Below are positions 3,151 to 12,081 of a stretch of 14,645 bases of DNA, in pieces. The translations under genes were made by a program, and so were the position numbers. The first letter of the stretch is position 1. Each line of letters begins with the position of its first letter. This DNA is from an uncultured Oscillospiraceae bacterium (lineage in GTDB: Bacteria; Bacillota; Clostridia; Oscillospirales; Oscillospiraceae), in contig CAKUKL010000013.1 in assembly GCA_934662925.1 (NCBI GenBank), forward strand, positions 1 through 14,645, written 5' to 3'. The notes beneath the pieces are model-generated. The model did not search any database. It was not told the DNA's origin and saw only the letters and a list, made by a program, of their open reading frames with translations.

Positions 3151-3780
3151 ATGAAGATCATCAACGCATCCGTAGAGATACTGACCCCTCTGGTCGGGGA
3201 CGCCGTCCTGCGCCACATCGAGCAATGCGGGCGGGTCTGCTACAAGTCCGAACACCGGATCACAGAGGGCAGCGCGGAGAAGTTTGTCCGGAACATCATC
3301 AGGCGGGGCCACGAGGCCGTGCTGGAGCACTTCGACATCACGGTGCGGTTCATCTGCGACCGGGGCGTAAGCCACGAGATCGTCCGGCACCGGATGGCCA
3401 GCTACTGTCAGGAGAGCACCCGCTACTGCAACTATTCCAAGGAGGGCTTCGGCGGCGAGATCACGGTCATTGCCCCGTGTTACCTTTCGGAGAATACCGA
3501 CGGCTGGATGCTGTGGGAAGAGGGATGCCTCGCCGCTGAAACGGCGTATTTCAATCTACTGGACTACGGTTGCACCCCGCAGGAGGCCCGGGCCGTGCTC
3601 CCCAACAGCCTCAAGACCGAGGTTGTCATGACAGCCAACCTGCGGGAGTGGCGTCACTTCCTTCGTCTGCGCACCGACCCCGCGGCCCACGTCCAGATGC
3701 GCGAGGTGGCCGGGCAGCTGCTCGACCAGCTCCGGGCACAGGTCCCCGTGGTGTTTGACGACATCGGAGCACGGGCATGA
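3151..3780 (+). CDS. thyX: Flavin-dependent thymidylate synthase ThyX
   Basis: The product is 209 aa, slightly short for the family. The ThyX signature is at residues 79-92 (RHRMASYCQESTRY), a fit to RHRxxSxxxxSxRY. Here Tyr-Cys-Gln replaces the more usual Tyr/Phe-Asn-x before the Glu. The C-terminal MTANLREWRHFLRLR with the following QMREVA matches the substrate/FAD-binding region. The enzyme makes dTMP from dUMP using methylenetetrahydrofolate and reduced FAD. It gives the phage its own thymidylate supply, independent of host ThyA. The ribosome binding site is AAAAGGAGG. The stop overlaps the polymerase start (ATGA at 3777-3780), coupling precursor supply to DNA synthesis. Confidence 0.95.
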   Translation: MKIINASVEILTPLVGDAVLRHIEQCGRVCYKSEHRITEGSAEKFVRNIIRRGHEAVLEHFDITVRFICDRGVSHEIVRHRMASYCQESTRYCNYSKEGFGGEITVIAPCYLSENTDGWMLWEEGCLAAETAYFNLLDYGCTPQEARAVLPNSLKTEVVMTANLREWRHFLRLRTDPAAHVQMREVAGQLLDQLRAQVPVVFDDIGARA

Positions 3781-6674
3781 GAGACCTGACACTGGACATT
3801 GAGACCTACTCCAGCGAGGACCTGGGCGAGACGGGGGTCCACCGGTACGCCGAGGCGCCGGATTTCGAGATCCAGCTGCTGAGCTACTGCTTCGACGACG
3901 GGGAGGTCCGGACGGTGGATCTGGCGATGGGCGACGAGCTGCCGGACGAGCTGCGCGCCGCCCTCACGGACCCCGGGGTGCGCAAGTGGGCCCACAACGC
4001 CGCCTTCGAGCGGACGTGCCTTGCCGCGTGGCTGGGGGTGCCCATGCCCGCGGAGCAGTGGTGGGACGACATGGTGCTTTGCGCGGTGTGCGGTCTGCCC
4101 ATGAGTCTGGGTGAGGCGGGCGCGGCCCTCGGGATGCCGGAGGACAAGGCGAAGGACCGAGCAGGCAAGGCCCTCGTCCGGTGGTTCTCCCAGCCCTACA
4201 AGGCCACGAAGAAGCGGCCCGGGGGACGGCATATGCCCGCGGACTATCCGGAGAAGTGGGAGCAGTACCGGGAGTACAACCGGCAGGACGTGGTGGCCGA
4301 GCGGGCCATCCACAATATGCTCCGCCGGTGGATACCGGGAAAGACGGAGCACCGGGCCTGGGTCGTGGACCAGGGGATCAACGACCGGGGCATCCGGGTG
4401 GACCTTGACCTTGCCCGGAACGCCGTGGCCTTCGACGCACGGTACAAGGCCCAGCTCACGGAGCAGGCCATCGCGGTATCCGGGCTGGAGAACCCCAACA
4501 GCGTGACGCAGATCAAGGCGTGGCTGCTGGAACAGGAGGGCCTGGCGGTACCCAGTCTGAACAAGAAGGTGGTGGCCGACGTGGTGGCACAGCTCCAGAC
4601 GGACCGGGCCCGGCAGTTCATGGACATCCGGAAGGAGCTGTCCAAGAGCTCCACGGCGAAGTACAGCGCCATGGTGCGCTCCGTCTGCGCGGACGAGCAC
4701 GTCCGGGGTTGCTTCCAGTTCTGCGGCGCAGGACGGACCGGGCGCTGGGCCGGACGGCGGGTACAGCTCCAGAACCTCGCCAAGAATAAGATGGAGGACA
4801 TCGGCACCTGCCGGGAGCTGGTGCGGACCGGGGACTACGAGACACTGGAGCTGCTGTACGGCAACGTGACCGGGTGCCTGTCCGAGCTGGTGCGCACGGC
4901 CCTCATCCCCGAGGAGGGGCACCGGTTCATCGTGTGCGACTACTCCGCCATCGAGGCCCGGGTACTGGCGTGGATCAGCGGCGAGGAGTGGGCGCTGGAG
5001 GAGTTCCGGGGTGCGGGCCAGATCTACGAGGCCACCGGGGCCATGATGTTCCACGTGCCCAAGGAGACCATCGCCAAGGGCGGCTGCAACCACGACAAGC
5101 GGCAGGCGGCCAAGACGGCTGTGCTGGCCTGCGTGGCCGAGGGCCAGCTTGTGCTCACCGACCGGGGGCCCGTCCCCGTCGAGTCCGTGAACATTGACGA
5201 CCTTCTGTGGGACGGGGCCGAATGGGTCCGCCACGAGGGAGTGGCTTTCCAGGGCATACGGGACACGGTGCTGGTGAATGGCGTGGAGCTCACGGACGAC
5301 CACAAGATACTGACTGAGAAAGGGATGATGGCCTGTGGCAATGCTGCGGGACTTAACTGGGCAGACGTTCGGCTACCTGACGGTCCTGGGACCCGGTGCG
5401 GTGCACACGAGCCCCTGCGGGCGGGCATCGCGGAAGTGGCGCTGCCTGTGCGTATGCGGAAATGTGAAAGAGATCCAGGCGGATCACCTGATCCGAACGA
5501 AGAAGCCGACCAAGTCTTGCGGATGTATGTCCCGGGCGCTGGACGCGGCGGGTCACACGAAGCACGGGATGACGGACTCGAAGCTGTACAGCATCTGGAA
5601 CCAGATGCGGCAGCGGTGCGCCAACCCGAAGGACAAGAGCTGGGCTCGCTACGGTGGGCGGGGCATCCGCGTATGCGACAGGTGGCAGACAAGTTTTCAG
5701 AACTTCTTAGACGACATGGGCCCCACATGGAAGCCCGGTCTCCAGATCGAACGTCTGGACAACTCAGCGGGGTACTCCCCGGAAAACTGCATCTGGGCCA
5801 CACGGTCTCAGCAGGGGCGGAACAAGCGGAACAATATCCGGGTATCGACGCCCCTGGGGGATATGACGCTGGCAGAACTGGCCGAACGGGTCGGACTCAA
5901 ATACGGGACGCTGCAATCCAGGTACTACCGGAAAAAGCCATTGTTGTCCGCAGAGGAAGAAGAGCGGTTAAGACATACGACCTGATCAATGCCGGTCCCC
6001 GGCACCGATTCTGTCTGGTGGACCATGAGTCCGGCGCTCTGCGGTGCGTATCAAATTGCGGCTACGGCGGGGGCGTGAACGCCCTGAAGGCCTTCGGCGC
6101 GGACAAGATGGGCATGACCGAGGAGGACATGGTGGAGACCGTGGACCTCTGGCGGGCGGCCAACAAGGGCGCCTGCAAGCTGTGGCGGGAGCTGGAGCGG
6201 GCCGCCATCCGCAGCGTGGTGCATGGCGGGACGGCGCTGTCCCGGACCGGGAACATCCGGTTCGACTTCGAGCAGGGCATCCTCTGGATGACGCTGCCCT
6301 CCGGACGGCGGATCGCCTACTTCGGGGTCCGGTACGGGGACAGCAGGTGGGGCGGAGGCCGCCGGGCGCTCAGCTACATGGGCATCGACCAGGACAAGCA
6401 CAAGTGGTCCCGGCTGGAGACATGGGGCGGGAAGCTCACGGAGAATCTGGTCCAGGCGACGGCGCGGGACTGCCTGCGGGACGCGATGCAGGCCCTCACC
6501 GACGCGGGGTTCCAGATCCGCGCCCACATCCACGACGAGGTGGTGATCTCCGAGCCCCGGGACGGGCGGACACTGGATGAGGTATCCGCCATCATGGGCC
6601 GGGCGCTCCCGTGGGCCCCTGGGCTGCCCCTTCGGGGCGACGGCTACTACTGCGACTACTACATCAAGGACTGA
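3777..6674 (+). CDS. polA: Family-A DNA polymerase with 3'-5' exonuclease domain, interrupted by an intein in motif B
   Basis: The precursor is 965 aa. Removing residues 452-760 leaves a 656-aa polymerase, the usual size for this phage family. The DnaQ-like exonuclease shows D7-I-E9 (Exo I), HNAAFE at 73-78 (Exo II) and Y167xxxD171 (Exo III). The polymerase motifs are A, DYSAIEAR at 388-395, and C, HDE at 919-921. Motif B is split: Arg442 and Lys446 lie before the intein, and Cys761-Gly-Tyr763-Gly after it. Joining them restores the R-x3-K-x7-YG spacing of E. coli Pol I (R754, K758, Y766), so splicing appears essential for activity. The F762-equivalent position is Leu450. Start ATG overlaps the thyX stop. 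It is the likely replicative polymerase of the phage. The frame stays open through a second gene at 5335-5985. Confidence 0.95.
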   Translation: MRDLTLDIETYSSEDLGETGVHRYAEAPDFEIQLLSYCFDDGEVRTVDLAMGDELPDELRAALTDPGVRKWAHNAAFERTCLAAWLGVPMPAEQWWDDMVLCAVCGLPMSLGEAGAALGMPEDKAKDRAGKALVRWFSQPYKATKKRPGGRHMPADYPEKWEQYREYNRQDVVAERAIHNMLRRWIPGKTEHRAWVVDQGINDRGIRVDLDLARNAVAFDARYKAQLTEQAIAVSGLENPNSVTQIKAWLLEQEGLAVPSLNKKVVADVVAQLQTDRARQFMDIRKELSKSSTAKYSAMVRSVCADEHVRGCFQFCGAGRTGRWAGRRVQLQNLAKNKMEDIGTCRELVRTGDYETLELLYGNVTGCLSELVRTALIPEEGHRFIVCDYSAIEARVLAWISGEEWALEEFRGAGQIYEATGAMMFHVPKETIAKGGCNHDKRQAAKTAVLACVAEGQLVLTDRGPVPVESVNIDDLLWDGAEWVRHEGVAFQGIRDTVLVNGVELTDDHKILTEKGMMACGNAAGLNWADVRLPDGPGTRCGAHEPLRAGIAEVALPVRMRKCERDPGGSPDPNEEADQVLRMYVPGAGRGGSHEARDDGLEAVQHLEPDAAAVRQPEGQELGSLRWAGHPRMRQVADKFSELLRRHGPHMEARSPDRTSGQLSGVLPGKLHLGHTVSAGAEQAEQYPGIDAPGGYDAGRTGRTGRTQIRDAAIQVLPEKAIVVRRGRRAVKTYDLINAGPRHRFCLVDHESGALRCVSNCGYGGGVNALKAFGADKMGMTEEDMVETVDLWRAANKGACKLWRELERAAIRSVVHGGTALSRTGNIRFDFEQGILWMTLPSGRRIAYFGVRYGDSRWGGGRRALSYMGIDQDKHKWSRLETWGGKLTENLVQATARDCLRDAMQALTDAGFQIRAHIHDEVVISEPRDGRTLDEVSAIMGRALPWAPGLPLRGDGYYCDYYIKD
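5319..5324 (+). promoter_or_regulatory. Putative internal ribosome binding site for the nested endonuclease gene
   Basis: AAAGGG lies ten bases upstream of GTG 5335 and 16 bases upstream of the in-frame ATG 5341. It is embedded in the block B codons for Lys515-Gly516. It favours GTG 5335 as the start. The match is moderate compared with the AAGGAGG sites elsewhere in the window. Confidence 0.45.
5335..5985 (+). CDS. Homing-endonuclease-like protein nested in the intein in the +1 frame
   Basis: The product is 216 aa from GTG 5335 (or 214 from ATG 5341). An in-frame TGA at 5326 limits any upstream extension. It belongs to a familiar phage family of free-standing HNH/AP2-type homing endonucleases. 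It has an N-terminal LTGQTFGYLTVLG. A zinc-ribbon-like W35-x-C37-x-C39-x-C41-G pairs with S61-C-G-C64. The core carries KLYSIWNQMRQRC, YGGRGIRVC (106-114), ERLDN (139-143) and YSPENCIWAT (147-156). A C-terminal NUMOD1-like HTH covers about residues 178-200. By hand count about 78% of its codons end in G or C, so this is a genuine coding frame. It lies wholly within the polymerase gene, frame +1, beginning just after intein block B and ending in block F. Independent translation is inferred, and the exact nuclease fold class is uncertain. Confidence 0.88.
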   Translation: MAMLRDLTGQTFGYLTVLGPGAVHTSPCGRASRKWRCLCVCGNVKEIQADHLIRTKKPTKSCGCMSRALDAAGHTKHGMTDSKLYSIWNQMRQRCANPKDKSWARYGGRGIRVCDRWQTSFQNFLDDMGPTWKPGLQIERLDNSAGYSPENCIWATRSQQGRNKRNNIRVSTPLGDMTLAELAERVGLKYGTLQSRYYRKKPLLSAEEEERLRHTT

Positions 6675-7310: not shown

Positions 7311-8600
7311 ATGAAACTACTGATAGGGGGGAGCCCCTGCACTCACTGGAGTATCGCACAGACCAAGAACCGCGAGACTGAGGCCAGCGGCATCGGCTGG
7401 GAGCTGTTCCTGAATTACCGCATCGCCCGGGACAAGTACCAGCCGGACTATTTCTTGTACGAGAACAACAAGTCCATGTCGCCCGCCATCCGGGCGCAGA
7501 TCACGGCGGAGCTGGGCGTGGAACCCGTGCTTATCAACTCCGCGCTGGTGAGTGCGCAGAACCGCCAGCGGCTTTACTGGGCCGGGAAGCGGAACCCCGA
7601 TGGTACATACAGCCAGGTGCCGGTCGAACAGCCGGAGGACCGGGGTATCCTGCTTCGGGATATTTTGGAGACTGCGACAGGCGAAAAAGGGTACGCCATT
7701 AAGCCGCTGACTGAAAAAGAGATGGAGTACATGGTGCGCGAGACCAAGGACGGGCGCAATCATTTCGACTTCGATTATTTTCACGACGCCACCAAGGACA
7801 AGAGCGCCTGCGTGACGGCAAACACGCATAAGGGCGTTCCCTATAACGTGCTGGCAGAGCCGGTACCTGTAAATGTGACTACCGATGGGAAATCACGTTG
7901 TCTGCGTGCCTCCTACTACAAGGACGGCATCCGCAATATGGTGGGAAATACCGTGGACCTAAAAACCTGTGTGGCCGTGCCTGTGCGCATCGGAACCATC
8001 GAGAACGACGCAAAGAACCCGGAGCATGACAGCCAGCAATACCGCGTTTATTCACCGGACGGAAAGAGTGTGACGCTCTGCGGAAACGGCGGAGGGCTGG
8101 GAGCAAAAACCGGCCTGTATGCTGCGCCGGTCGGCGGCCCGGGTGGGAGAGTGTGCCCCGTATACGAAGTCCGCGACGGCTTTATCACCATCAAAGGCAA
8201 GCAATACCCAATCAAGCTGAGGGACGGCTGCTATATCATCCGCAAGCTGACGGTCCGCGAGTGTATGCGCCTCCAAACGGTGCCGGAGACCTATGTTTTC
8301 CCAGTGAGCGACACACAGGCATACAAGATGCTGGGCAACGGCTGGACCGTGGACGTGATCGCGCACATCATGAGCCACTTTGAAGGGCTGACGGAGGAGC
8401 CGGTGGAAGTGCTTTCCATGTACGACGGTATGAGCTGCGGCCATATCGCGCTGGACAAGCTGGGCGTGGCGATCGCCGCCTACTATGCAACCGAAATCGA
8501 CAAATACGCCGTGCAGACCACGCAGGCGAACTTCCCTGATGTGGTGCAGCTCGGAGACGCCTTTCAGGTCCGGGAGCCGGACTGGGAGTGCCTGTTATAA
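7311..8600 (+). CDS. Circularly permuted DNA cytosine-C5 methyltransferase
   Basis: The product is 429 aa with a strong AAAGGAGG ribosome binding site. C5-methyltransferase motifs are all present but in permuted order. Motif IV is GGSPCTHWS, with catalytic Cys10 at the very start. It is followed by VI (YENNKS, Glu51) and VIII (QNRQRLYW, 83-90). A large target-recognition region spans about 140-300. Motif IX is RKLTVRECMRLQTVP, and X is LGNGWTVDVIAHIM (341-354). The SAM-binding motif I (LSMYDGMSCG, about 368-377) and motif II (EIDKYA at 395) come last, ending near motif III. It transfers methyl from SAM to cytosine, probably protecting phage DNA from host restriction. No restriction endonuclease is adjacent. 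Codons are visibly richer in A/T than those of polA, suggesting separate acquisition. Confidence 0.9.
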   Translation: MKLLIGGSPCTHWSIAQTKNRETEASGIGWELFLNYRIARDKYQPDYFLYENNKSMSPAIRAQITAELGVEPVLINSALVSAQNRQRLYWAGKRNPDGTYSQVPVEQPEDRGILLRDILETATGEKGYAIKPLTEKEMEYMVRETKDGRNHFDFDYFHDATKDKSACVTANTHKGVPYNVLAEPVPVNVTTDGKSRCLRASYYKDGIRNMVGNTVDLKTCVAVPVRIGTIENDAKNPEHDSQQYRVYSPDGKSVTLCGNGGGLGAKTGLYAAPVGGPGGRVCPVYEVRDGFITIKGKQYPIKLRDGCYIIRKLTVRECMRLQTVPETYVFPVSDTQAYKMLGNGWTVDVIAHIMSHFEGLTEEPVEVLSMYDGMSCGHIALDKLGVAIAAYYATEIDKYAVQTTQANFPDVVQLGDAFQVREPDWECLL

Positions 8601-10227: not shown

Positions 10228-10687
10228 GCGCCGGGCGGACCCGGTGCGGGAGTTCCTGCGCTCCGGGCTGGAGGCCCGGCTGGAGGTGCGGCGGCACCAG
10301 CGGCGCACCGAGGAGCTGGAGAGCCGCTGCACCCGGCTGGTGGCCCAGATGACGGGGATGCCCGCCGGGGGCGGCTCCGGACTGGAGGCCACGTGGGCGG
10401 CCCTCGCAGATGAGCGGCGGGAGGAGCAGCGCCTCGTGCAGGAGGAGCTGGACCAGTATCACGCGGTGGAACGGTTCATCGCCCGGCTGGGGGACCCTGT
10501 GTGCCGGACGGTGCTGCGGCTGCGGTATCTGGAGGGGCTGAGCTGGATCCAGCTCCAGAAGCGGCTCTACCAGGACGGACTGTACTACTCCGAGCGGCAG
10601 ATCTTCCGCCTCCACGGGGCGGCGCTTCAGGAGGCCCGGGAACTCTGGCCGAAAGAACCGGCTGAGGCAGAGGGGGTGGTCGAATGA
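10214..10687 (+). CDS. Sigma-region-4/ArpU-like phage transcriptional regulator
   Basis: The product is 157 aa from ATG 10214. Residues about 15-85 are coiled, charged helices. The C-terminal VLRLRYLEGLSWIQLQKRL, then YYSERQIFRLHGAALQEAREL, is a sigma-70 region 4-type helix-turn-helix, as in the DUF1492/ArpU-like proteins of Gram-positive phages. Such proteins typically switch on later phage genes or muramidase export. Here it lies in mid-operon, immediately before the SNF2 helicase, with an ATGA overlap. Confidence 0.78.
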   Translation: MTETERRADPVREFLRSGLEARLEVRRHQRRTEELESRCTRLVAQMTGMPAGGGSGLEATWAALADERREEQRLVQEELDQYHAVERFIARLGDPVCRTVLRLRYLEGLSWIQLQKRLYQDGLYYSERQIFRLHGAALQEARELWPKEPAEAEGVVE

Positions 10688-12081
10688 GGTTCGTTCCGAA
10701 AACGTATCAGCAGTATTGCATTGACAGGCTGCTGGCCCCGCCTGAACCGGAGAGCGCGGGGCTGCTGCTGGACATGGGCCTTGGGAAAACGTCGGTGACG
10801 CTGACGGCGGCGGACAACCTGATCTGGGACGAGTTCGCCGTGGACAAGGCCCTCGTCATCGCCCCGCTGCGGGTGGCGGAGGACACATGGACCACGGAGA
10901 CGGCCAAGTGGGACCACCTGCGGCGGCTGCGGGTGTCCCCGGTACTGGGGGACCGGAAGCACCGCCTCGCCGGGCTGGCCGCCCCCGCGGATCTGTACGT
11001 CATCAACCGGGAAAACGTGGAGTGGCTGTGCGACCCGAAGGAGTCCGGCATGAGGACCTGGCCCTTCGACCTGGTCATCATCGACGAGCTGTCCAGCTTC
11101 AAGAACCACCAGGCCAAGCGCTGGCGGGCCCTGAAGCGCCGGATGCCCGTGGGGACCCCGGTATGGGGCCTCACGGGCACAGTGGCTCCCCGGGGGTACA
11201 TCGACCTGTGGGCCCAGATCTACCTGCTGGACCGGGGGCAGAGGCTGGGGCCCACCATCGGCGCGTACCGGGAGCGCTACTTCACCCCTGGAGCCCGGAA
11301 GGGCCACATCGTCTACGAGTGGCGGCTGAAAGTTGGGGCCCGGGAGCGGATCGACAGCGCCCTTGGGGACCTGTGCCTGTCCATGCGCAAGGAGGATTAT
11401 CTGGACCTGCCCCCGGTGACGTTCAACCGGGTGGCGGTGCGGATGGACCGGAAGGAGCGGGCCCTGTACGACGCTCTGAAGCGGGACAAGGTGCTCACCA
11501 TGCTGGACGGGCAGGACCTGGACAGCGCCGTGGTGGGCGCGACAGCGGCGGCCCTGTCCGGGAAGCTGCTCCAGATGGCGGGAGGCGCGGTGTACGATGA
11601 GGACGGGGGCGTGGTGGAGATACACAGGCGGAAGCTGGACGCCCTCGCCGAGCTGGAGGAGGCCGCACAGGGCCAGCCGCTGCTGGTATTCTACGCCTAC
11701 AAGCACGAGGCCGACCGCATTCAGGCGAAGTTCCCCCGGGCCGTCCGCCTCGACGCCCATGCGGACACGGTGGACACCATCGCCCGGTGGAACGCCGGGG
11801 AGATCCCCATGCTGCTGTGCCACCCGGCGAGTGCGGGGCACGGACTGAACCTTCAGACCGGGGGGCACATCGTGATCTGGTACGGGCTGCCCTGGTCGCT
11901 GGAGCTGTACCAGCAGGCCAACGCCCGGCTGCACCGGATGGGCCAGACGGACCCGGTGGTGGTCCACCACATCGTCTGCGAGGACACGCTGGACGACAAG
12001 GTGCTGTCCGTGCTGGGGCAGCGCGGCGCGGAGCAGGACCGGCTCATTGCAGCACTCAAAGCATACATCAAGGAGGAATGA
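10684..12081 (+). CDS. Phage SNF2-family DNA helicase/translocase
   Basis: The product is 465 aa. It has Walker A DMGLGKT (30-36), a Walker B-type DELS box (134-137), motif III GLTGTVAP, and motif VI QQANARLHRMGQ (410-421). The Q-motif-like YQQYCIDRLL is at the N-terminus. It is compact, with no accessory domains, as expected for the SNF2 helicases of phage replication modules. It probably translocates on dsDNA to strip proteins or assist replication or recombination. The start overlaps the previous stop. The next gene begins two bases past its stop. Confidence 0.93.
   Translation: MRFVPKTYQQYCIDRLLAPPEPESAGLLLDMGLGKTSVTLTAADNLIWDEFAVDKALVIAPLRVAEDTWTTETAKWDHLRRLRVSPVLGDRKHRLAGLAAPADLYVINRENVEWLCDPKESGMRTWPFDLVIIDELSSFKNHQAKRWRALKRRMPVGTPVWGLTGTVAPRGYIDLWAQIYLLDRGQRLGPTIGAYRERYFTPGARKGHIVYEWRLKVGARERIDSALGDLCLSMRKEDYLDLPPVTFNRVAVRMDRKERALYDALKRDKVLTMLDGQDLDSAVVGATAAALSGKLLQMAGGAVYDEDGGVVEIHRRKLDALAELEEAAQGQPLLVFYAYKHEADRIQAKFPRAVRLDAHADTVDTIARWNAGEIPMLLCHPASAGHGLNLQTGGHIVIWYGLPWSLELYQQANARLHRMGQTDPVVVHHIVCEDTLDDKVLSVLGQRGAEQDRLIAALKAYIKEE

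Follow-up and report, generated by a model that had tools for sequence, protein, structure and literature searches.

Textbook homing inteins spread with splicing domain and endonuclease in one polypeptide, the endonuclease being an in-frame domain between intein blocks B and F. The element described here resembles them in its splicing domain, in the position of its endonuclease between blocks B and F and, on the reading that we favor, in mobility, but its endonuclease is not an in-frame domain, nor is that of any of 125 comparable loci. It lies in a stretch of 14,645 nucleotides (nt) from an uncultured Oscillospiraceae bacterium (contig CAKUKL010000013.1, assembly GCA_934662925.1), which as a whole we call the window. 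Here a gene for a family A DNA polymerase (PolA) contains an intein, and the intein contains an HNH-type homing endonuclease gene (HEG) in another reading frame. In fractured genes, reportedly described by Dassa et al. in 2009, the intein is said to be split and a free-standing endonuclease gene to lie between its two parts. There too the endonuclease gene is separate from the intein polypeptide, but the host gene is split, whereas here the precursor frame is continuous.

Our literature search, which covered few subscription papers and preprints, found the layout mentioned once, with no account of it as a class. The mention is a few sentences on one phage group, in which the HNH gene of the brucellaphage terminase intein is called "out of frame" (PMC4422536, Virol J 2015). 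As those authors word it, the HNH gene is again associated with an intein and read in a different frame from the essential phage gene around it, but the portions of the paper covered here hold no analysis of splicing blocks, frames or stop avoidance, and the likeness is one of description only. No Brucella record occurs among the 50 of 153 matches listed. Hidden HNH genes in non-intein insertions have been described as the ShiLan domain and the Pacc40 insertion (PMC11855218, Genes 2025) and are echoed in PMC12613952. In the excerpts covered, these resemble our case in having an out-of-frame HNH gene with a GTG start within an open insertion in a phage gene, and in their disjunct distribution; they differ in that the authors find neither intein nor intron, whereas the window insertion has a splicing domain, with intein splicing blocks and fold. 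The out-of-frame layout was not seen in the covered parts of PMC8579659 (on APSE), PMC5050341 (on mycobacteriophage inteins) and PMC8425127 (on Jerseyvirus), the last of which mentions inteins and homing endonucleases. A preprint (10.1101/2025.01.02.630785, "Non-Canonical Architecture", cited in PMC11855218) may overlap with the present finding. The layout is not wholly unmentioned before; what would strike a specialist as new is how widely it occurs, that it exists in two frames, and that splicing blocks are doubly coding.

The nested gene and its intein

The PolA open reading frame (ORF; 3777-6674) encodes 965 residues without an internal stop, and its parts are listed in Table 1. The ORF, the intein ends and the coordinates of the HEG confirm the initial annotation of this DNA, which had proposed an HNH gene nested out of frame, with its own start, in a PolA intein. 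The N-extein ends ...KTAVLA at the junction, and the intein stands directly before a YG, in a region that we take to be motif B (the O-helix) of the polymerase. An uninterrupted relative (L060) reads TLACGYQG at this site and has no insertion.

Table 1. Coordinates of the polymerase, the intein and the nested gene in the window
Feature	Position	Strand	Basis or remark
N-extein, family A DNA polymerase	3777..5129	+	Pfam DNA_pol_A 4e-18; phrog_17 8e-122
Intein, 309 aa, C1 ... N309, then Cys +1; holds the nested HEG	5130..6056	+	sequence; model matches solved inteins
N-terminal splicing block, TxxH at residues 55-58	5130..5334	+	invariant alignment columns; block-mean pLDDT 93-98, residues 1-80
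Shine-Dalgarno-like GAGAAAGGG, 10 nt before GTG, within splicing-domain codons	5316..5324	+	weak, -4.4 kcal/mol
TGA in HEG frame just upstream of start	5326..5328	+	sequence
HNH-type homing endonuclease gene, 216 aa, GTG start, TGA stop	5335..5985	+	+1 frame to polymerase
HEG shadow in polymerase frame, forming the intein linker; open, mostly predicted disordered	5335..5985	+	pLDDT
C-terminal splicing blocks F and G	5946..6056	+	strand from residue 273; D284, F294, penultimate Ser308, N309
HEG stop TGA, in codons L285-I286 of block F	5983..5985	+	sequence
C-extein of DNA polymerase, starts CGYGGG	6057..6674	+	phrog_10285 6e-84 from residue 761

The nucleophile C1, T55 and H58, the terminal N309 and the following Cys are all present in the window intein, whose N-terminal splicing block we take to be intein blocks A and B. 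The earlier description of the splicing blocks as intact holds for these residues but not fully for block G, where Ser308 replaces the canonical penultimate His. Among the 122 nested inteins with a placed end, the penultimate residue is His in 117 and Ser in five (the window, its near relatives L075, L076 and L078, and L151), so that a penultimate His is common but not universal in this family. Cys1 and TxxH occur in 122 of 122 nested inteins, and a terminal Asn followed by Cys or Ser in 122 of 123 by profile placement, a procedure that required Asn before Cys, Ser or Thr and left L178 (ending AN-C) unplaced. In one of the alignments used for invariant columns, the row of L083 is short by eight residues. 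The predicted structure is confident at residues 1-80 and 271-309 and has the intein (Hint) fold. In a Foldseek-type search with this model, solved inteins occupied ranks 1-26 (best E value 7e-4, with only rank 1 below 0.001).

The HEG product matches the HNH endonuclease family phrog_374 (1e-69), while a Pfam search with it matched no HNH family; its model has a mean predicted local distance difference test score (pLDDT) of 90 and gave no Foldseek match at E 0.001. Its TGA begins four bases after the start of the D284 codon. The ribosome binding site, called moderate in the initial annotation, proved weak, its duplex energy lying only at the 28th percentile of same-phase positions. Read in the polymerase frame, the HEG gives a shadow peptide with pLDDT below 50 at residues 91-116, 124-178 and 199-261; judged from the model, it looks like nothing more than a linker, as had been suggested. 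We consider it very likely that the element is a mobile intein of a phage PolA and that its homing endonuclease, instead of being an intein domain, is encoded by a gene of its own that overprints the linker in the +1 frame.

The polymerase frame is open across the whole HEG. A recount agreed that 17 HEG codons end in T and that none is followed by AA, AG or GA; codons beginning in one of these ways number 49, not 48. When synonymous codons were permuted (400 permutations), 3.1 intein-frame stops were expected and none was found, with a probability of 0.01 for no stop, close to the earlier estimate of about 0.015. Taken by itself, the openness at this locus is suggestive and not decisive; the relatives make the case firm.

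Distribution of the nested layout

A set of 50,697 phage records was searched by tblastn with the window polymerase, intein and HEG. Gardnerella phage AB1 has a polymerase that aligns with the whole of the window polymerase, intein included. Caulobacter, APSE and Shewanella phages have polymerases that align with 96% of the intein, and the best HEG matches also lie inside polymerases of these phages. The nested gene is annotated in the APSE-1 record (P46 in P45). Reading of the frames placed the HEG in +1 in Gardnerella, streptococcal, Caulobacter, APSE and Shewanella phages, and in +2 in Dhillonvirus, Jerseyvirus, EBPR, Pseudomonas and Vibrio phages; this second class rules out +1 as the sole possible frame. 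Scans of viral contigs added 50 loci with the window HEG, five with the polymerase and one with a single +2 HEG; alignments of the intein and of +2 HEGs were also used, from which the best 80 of 517 and the best 80 of 576 matches, respectively, were taken. A GTDB scan added one locus. Sources are numbered L001-L236, plus the window, and counts refer to loci compiled from records and scans. We note a bias in the intein scan: its hits were ordered by how well they match the window intein as read in its own frame, and this favors open frames and +1. The HEG scans are free of this bias.

There are 230 loci that match the HEG. An intein N block is adjacent in 125, and in all of these the HEG is nested out of frame (89 in +1, 36 in +2); of the other 105, which have no intein block, 103 are free-standing and two, L046 and L186, sit within an open frame that belongs to no intein. 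The nested loci form 98 clusters at 90% DNA identity (69 in +1, 29 in +2), a recurrence that rules out a sequencing error or frameshift pair in the window. They include no true in-frame endonuclease fusion, which, like homologues with a broken polymerase frame, had been named as a result that would overturn the initial reading. In 124 of the 125, the intein frame stays open through the HEG and keeps the phase of the splicing block. The exception, L159 (2837-3670), is the only nested locus whose intein frame is broken; there the N block is in frame with the HEG and a stop lies upstream, the result of a frameshift or sequence error. The suggestion that an endonuclease gene had colonized the intein at this particular locus was not borne out in that form: 125 homologous inteins carry such HNH genes.

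The sources differ in composition. Among L001-L154 and the window (155 sources), 148 have a HEG match, comprising 96 with an N block (88 in +1, 8 in +2), whose frame is open across the HEG in every case, 51 free-standing and the single L046; the seven others are HEG-less inteins (L003, L073) and polymerases (L060-L064). The 82 loci L155-L236 comprise 29 with an N block (28 in +2, one in +1), 52 free-standing and L186. By scan, the window HEG found 49 free-standing loci, one nested outside an intein and none within; the intein alignment found +1 nesting in 80 of 80 among the best 80 of 517; and the +2 HEG alignment found, among its best 80 of 576, 27 in inteins, 52 free-standing and one nested outside an intein.

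Nearly all nested examples come from phages, mostly in PolA hosts but in helicases too. The exteins of the 96 nested loci among L001-L154 and the window fall into a cluster of 72 that includes the window PolA, a second cluster of 19, and five singles; L105, from the second cluster, matches phrog_62, a DNA helicase. For +2 HEGs, profiles identify a polymerase host in L179 and a helicase host in L181. The exteins of L080 and L146 matched no PHROG or Pfam profile and resemble terminase by eye only. The polymerases of L076, L123 and L129 seem to carry two inteins, judging by a second N block upstream in the same open frame. The related polymerase of L063 has an insertion of a different kind upstream, in frame, intein-like and some 300 residues long (CLTGDHEVLTPAGWV ... 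VWITGN; approximately 4974-5900), which holds no nested HEG of the window family. The nested +1 inteins of L140 and L236 are nearly identical and their HEGs are short; the open frame is just 382 residues long and the polymerase looks broken. One of the two is in an Arsenophonus genome. L186 has its HEG in an open +1 frame of 427 residues without an intein, at a GC fraction of 0.72, and its openness may be due to chance.

The disjunct occurrence of the element suggests mobility. A 600-base query from the Jerseyvirus N-extein is covered to at least 80% in 345 phage records, and the intein to at least 80% in 163, each set being counted by itself. In one pair, Sodalis phage SO-1 (L065) and Sp4, DNA identity is 82% between the inteins and 65% and 63% between the exteins, which points to horizontal spread of the intein. 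SO-1 also has a second putative HNH gene (gp37; L065:4104-4706), free-standing and directly after the polymerase. At the insertion site of the window, L003 and L073 have HEG-less inteins and L002 a HEG remnant. In a tree of HEGs the +2 genes form a single branch, whose support of 87 falls short of the starred level, and +1 needs four changes. The single +2 branch fits few captures followed by joint spread. A tree of the splicing domain, from 100 columns, has 48 of 103 inner branches open and five frame changes; it is mostly unresolved and says little about the number of captures. Highest identity to the window HEG is shown by the free-standing L023 (53% over 124 columns), while the nearest by tree path are the nested L075 and L076. 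With trees so poorly resolved, and with no intein-nested locus among the 50 that the window HEG itself found, this HEG could be a later capture.

Maintenance of the open frame and protein constraint

The stop test permuted synonymous codons within each HEG, and 13 nested loci with a HEG-frame stop inside the match were left out. The 112 remaining nested genes contain no intein-frame stop, against about 628 expected, which upholds the earlier proposal that the openness is maintained. For +1 (80 of 89 genes) the intein frame has 0 stops against 509 expected and the unused frame 928 against 862; for +2 (32 of 36) the figures are 0 against 119 and 511 against 487. In free-standing HEGs, the two frames have 629 and 321 stops against 678 and 295 expected for those from the window search and records (48 of 51), and 534 and 289 against 607 and 278 for those from the +2 search (50 of 52). 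Free-standing HEGs therefore have stop numbers near expectation, a little below it in one frame and a little above it in the other, and these controls rule out chance openness of the intein frame. The free-standing phrog_374 copies, to whose family the window HEG belongs and which make up 49 of the 50 loci in its scan, differ from it in that no second frame is kept open.

The two layouts differ in what an open frame costs. A +1 intein-frame stop needs an NNT codon followed by AA, AG or GA, and since NNT to NNC is always silent, no protein forbids an open frame; unavoidable +1 stops number 0 in 230 HEGs. In the +2 layout, Met before a codon starting with A forces an intein-frame stop. Only 41% of the 51 free-standing HEGs from the window search and records, and 29% of the 52 from the +2 search, lack such a pair, so the +2 rule excludes most proteins of the HEG family as they stand. 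The lack of an unavoidable stop in all 36 nested +2 HEGs follows from their open frame, and only the free-standing counts are informative.

Constraint was compared in 140 of 786 possible pairs, taking up to three per locus and only pairs with 20 or more substitutions. Within the HEG, substitutions are distributed over HEG codon positions 1, 2 and 3 in proportions of 27/23/50% (+1) and 29/22/49% (+2), and those in the splicing N block over intein codon positions in proportions of 27/22/51% (+1) and 31/23/46% (+2). At the protein level, mean identity is 0.65 in the HEG and 0.62 in the N block but drops to 0.40 in the shadow. These figures indicate that amino-acid constraint switches frame at the HEG, whose product is conserved while the shadow is much less so. 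The shadow appears to be constrained to stay open, and much less to a given sequence.

Start sites, alternative readings and neighboring genes

A start codon lies upstream of the conserved part of the HEG in 87 of 88 +1 loci and in 36 of 36 +2 loci (L159 included). Pairing energy with the anti-Shine-Dalgarno sequence was taken at the best-paired start, with equally many random same-phase positions as control; median energies are -6.6 (+1) and -7.6 (+2) kcal/mol, against -3.7 at random and -6.5 for free-standing HEGs. The +1 HEGs start at intein residue 68, 69 or 74 in 70 of 87 cases, just after block B. Of the 36 +2 HEGs, 31 start at residue 31 or 33; this is ahead of block B, which is thus read in both frames. 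In 77 of 85 (+1) and 33 of 34 (+2), the stop codon of the HEG is at or beyond the block F Asp codon, and the HEG tail thus overlaps block F. It is likely that we are dealing with a large unrecognized class of phage inteins with an overprinted, separately translated homing gene, existing in +1 and +2 forms, each in polymerases and helicases. The start (+2) or the stop and tail (both forms) of the HEG would lie inside catalytic splicing-block codons, coupling splicing and homing by DNA and not by translation; the +1 form can be opened silently, whereas the +2 form costs amino-acid choices.

The same start regions bear on programmed ribosomal frameshifting from the polymerase frame, which would produce a fusion of N-extein, N-terminal intein part and HEG with no independent start. 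The frames permit this, and the HEG frame is open for 117 nt upstream of the conserved start in the streptococcal and Gardnerella group and for 57-279 nt in the +2 loci shown. However, in the window it is closed 9 nt before the GTG, and in many of the +1 loci listed a stop stands 18 or 39 nt before the start, leaving a small interval for a shift. Since start codons with Shine-Dalgarno-like sites are near universal and both +1 and +2 layouts exist, we regard frameshifting as quite improbable.

A HEG that is just a chance ORF or a dead passenger, with the intein frame open because of high GC, is very improbable. The window is indeed GC-rich (66%) and its own probability is just 0.01, and the HEG is lost or shortened in some relatives (L002, L072, L089, L140, L154, L236). 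Against this, relatives show frame-specific amino-acid conservation, and nested HEGs of 36-47% GC also have 0 stops, although the two full ones of lowest GC, L178 and L227, are singly non-significant (P 0.065 and 0.13). The window HEG is full length and has all 23 columns that are invariant across 40 nested HEGs.

An insertion of the ShiLan type, with the shadow retained in the polymerase and no protein splicing, is highly improbable here. The out-of-frame HNH gene is of the same type, ShiLan elements are described as lacking splicing domains, and one relative looks like such a case: L046 (3914-4711) has a +1 HEG of the same family in an open frame of 1438 residues (DarB/polyprotein-like, with an InPase domain) without an intein block. 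The window, however, has conserved splicing blocks, an intein fold and an insertion directly before the YG of the presumed motif B. HNH ORFs are common in phage introns, and the SO-1 record annotates its nested gene as an intron ORF ("contains type I self-splicing intron"), but a group I or II intron with an HNH ORF, spliced at the RNA level, is extremely improbable given the absence of any Rfam match up to E 1 in 4900-6300 and of any intron-type match at gathering score in 15 sources including SO-1 and the window, together with the Cys1 and TxxH of the nested inteins, the fold of solved inteins and the open frame.

The sequences themselves show the reading frames and that these are maintained, a constraint specific to each frame, the start sites of the HEG and one case of spread; splicing, independent translation, cleavage and homing we infer as follows. 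The whole polymerase frame would be translated into a precursor, in which the two splicing blocks would fold together while the shadow loops out as a disordered linker; the intein would excise itself and restore the polymerase. A second initiation on the same mRNA, at a GTG or ATG just after block B and with a Shine-Dalgarno-like site inside splicing-domain codons, would give a free HNH endonuclease. This would cut intein-less polymerase alleles in mixed infections, and recombination would copy intein and endonuclease into the cut alleles. Selection would keep the endonuclease protein in one frame and mainly keep the other open.

In such a layout, the splicing and endonuclease functions have their DNA in common but reside in different proteins. 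Synthesis of the endonuclease might not have to await splicing, and the enzyme's own start site could determine how much of it is made; nor could the intein shed linker DNA and keep the HEG. With more than 100 natural examples in two frames and free-standing controls, the rules for keeping a second frame open are directly measurable. The layout also explains why depositors have annotated these loci variously as polymerase only, as a nested HNH gene or as an intron.

The whole window is a phage-type segment. Its genes encode a DUF2800 protein, an ssDNA-binding protein, ThyX, PolA, a cell wall hydrolase, a C5-methyltransferase, a SNF2-type helicase and a VapE-like protein. The helicase (10684-12078) belongs to phrog_62, which carries nested-HEG inteins in other phages, and is itself intein-less. 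The C5-methyltransferase (7311-8597) appears circularly permuted: its Pfam DNA_methylase match falls in two stretches, and it starts with what we take to be the PC-loop motif (GGSPC) and ends with what is presumably motif I (SMYDGMSCGHIAL ... ATEIDKYA).

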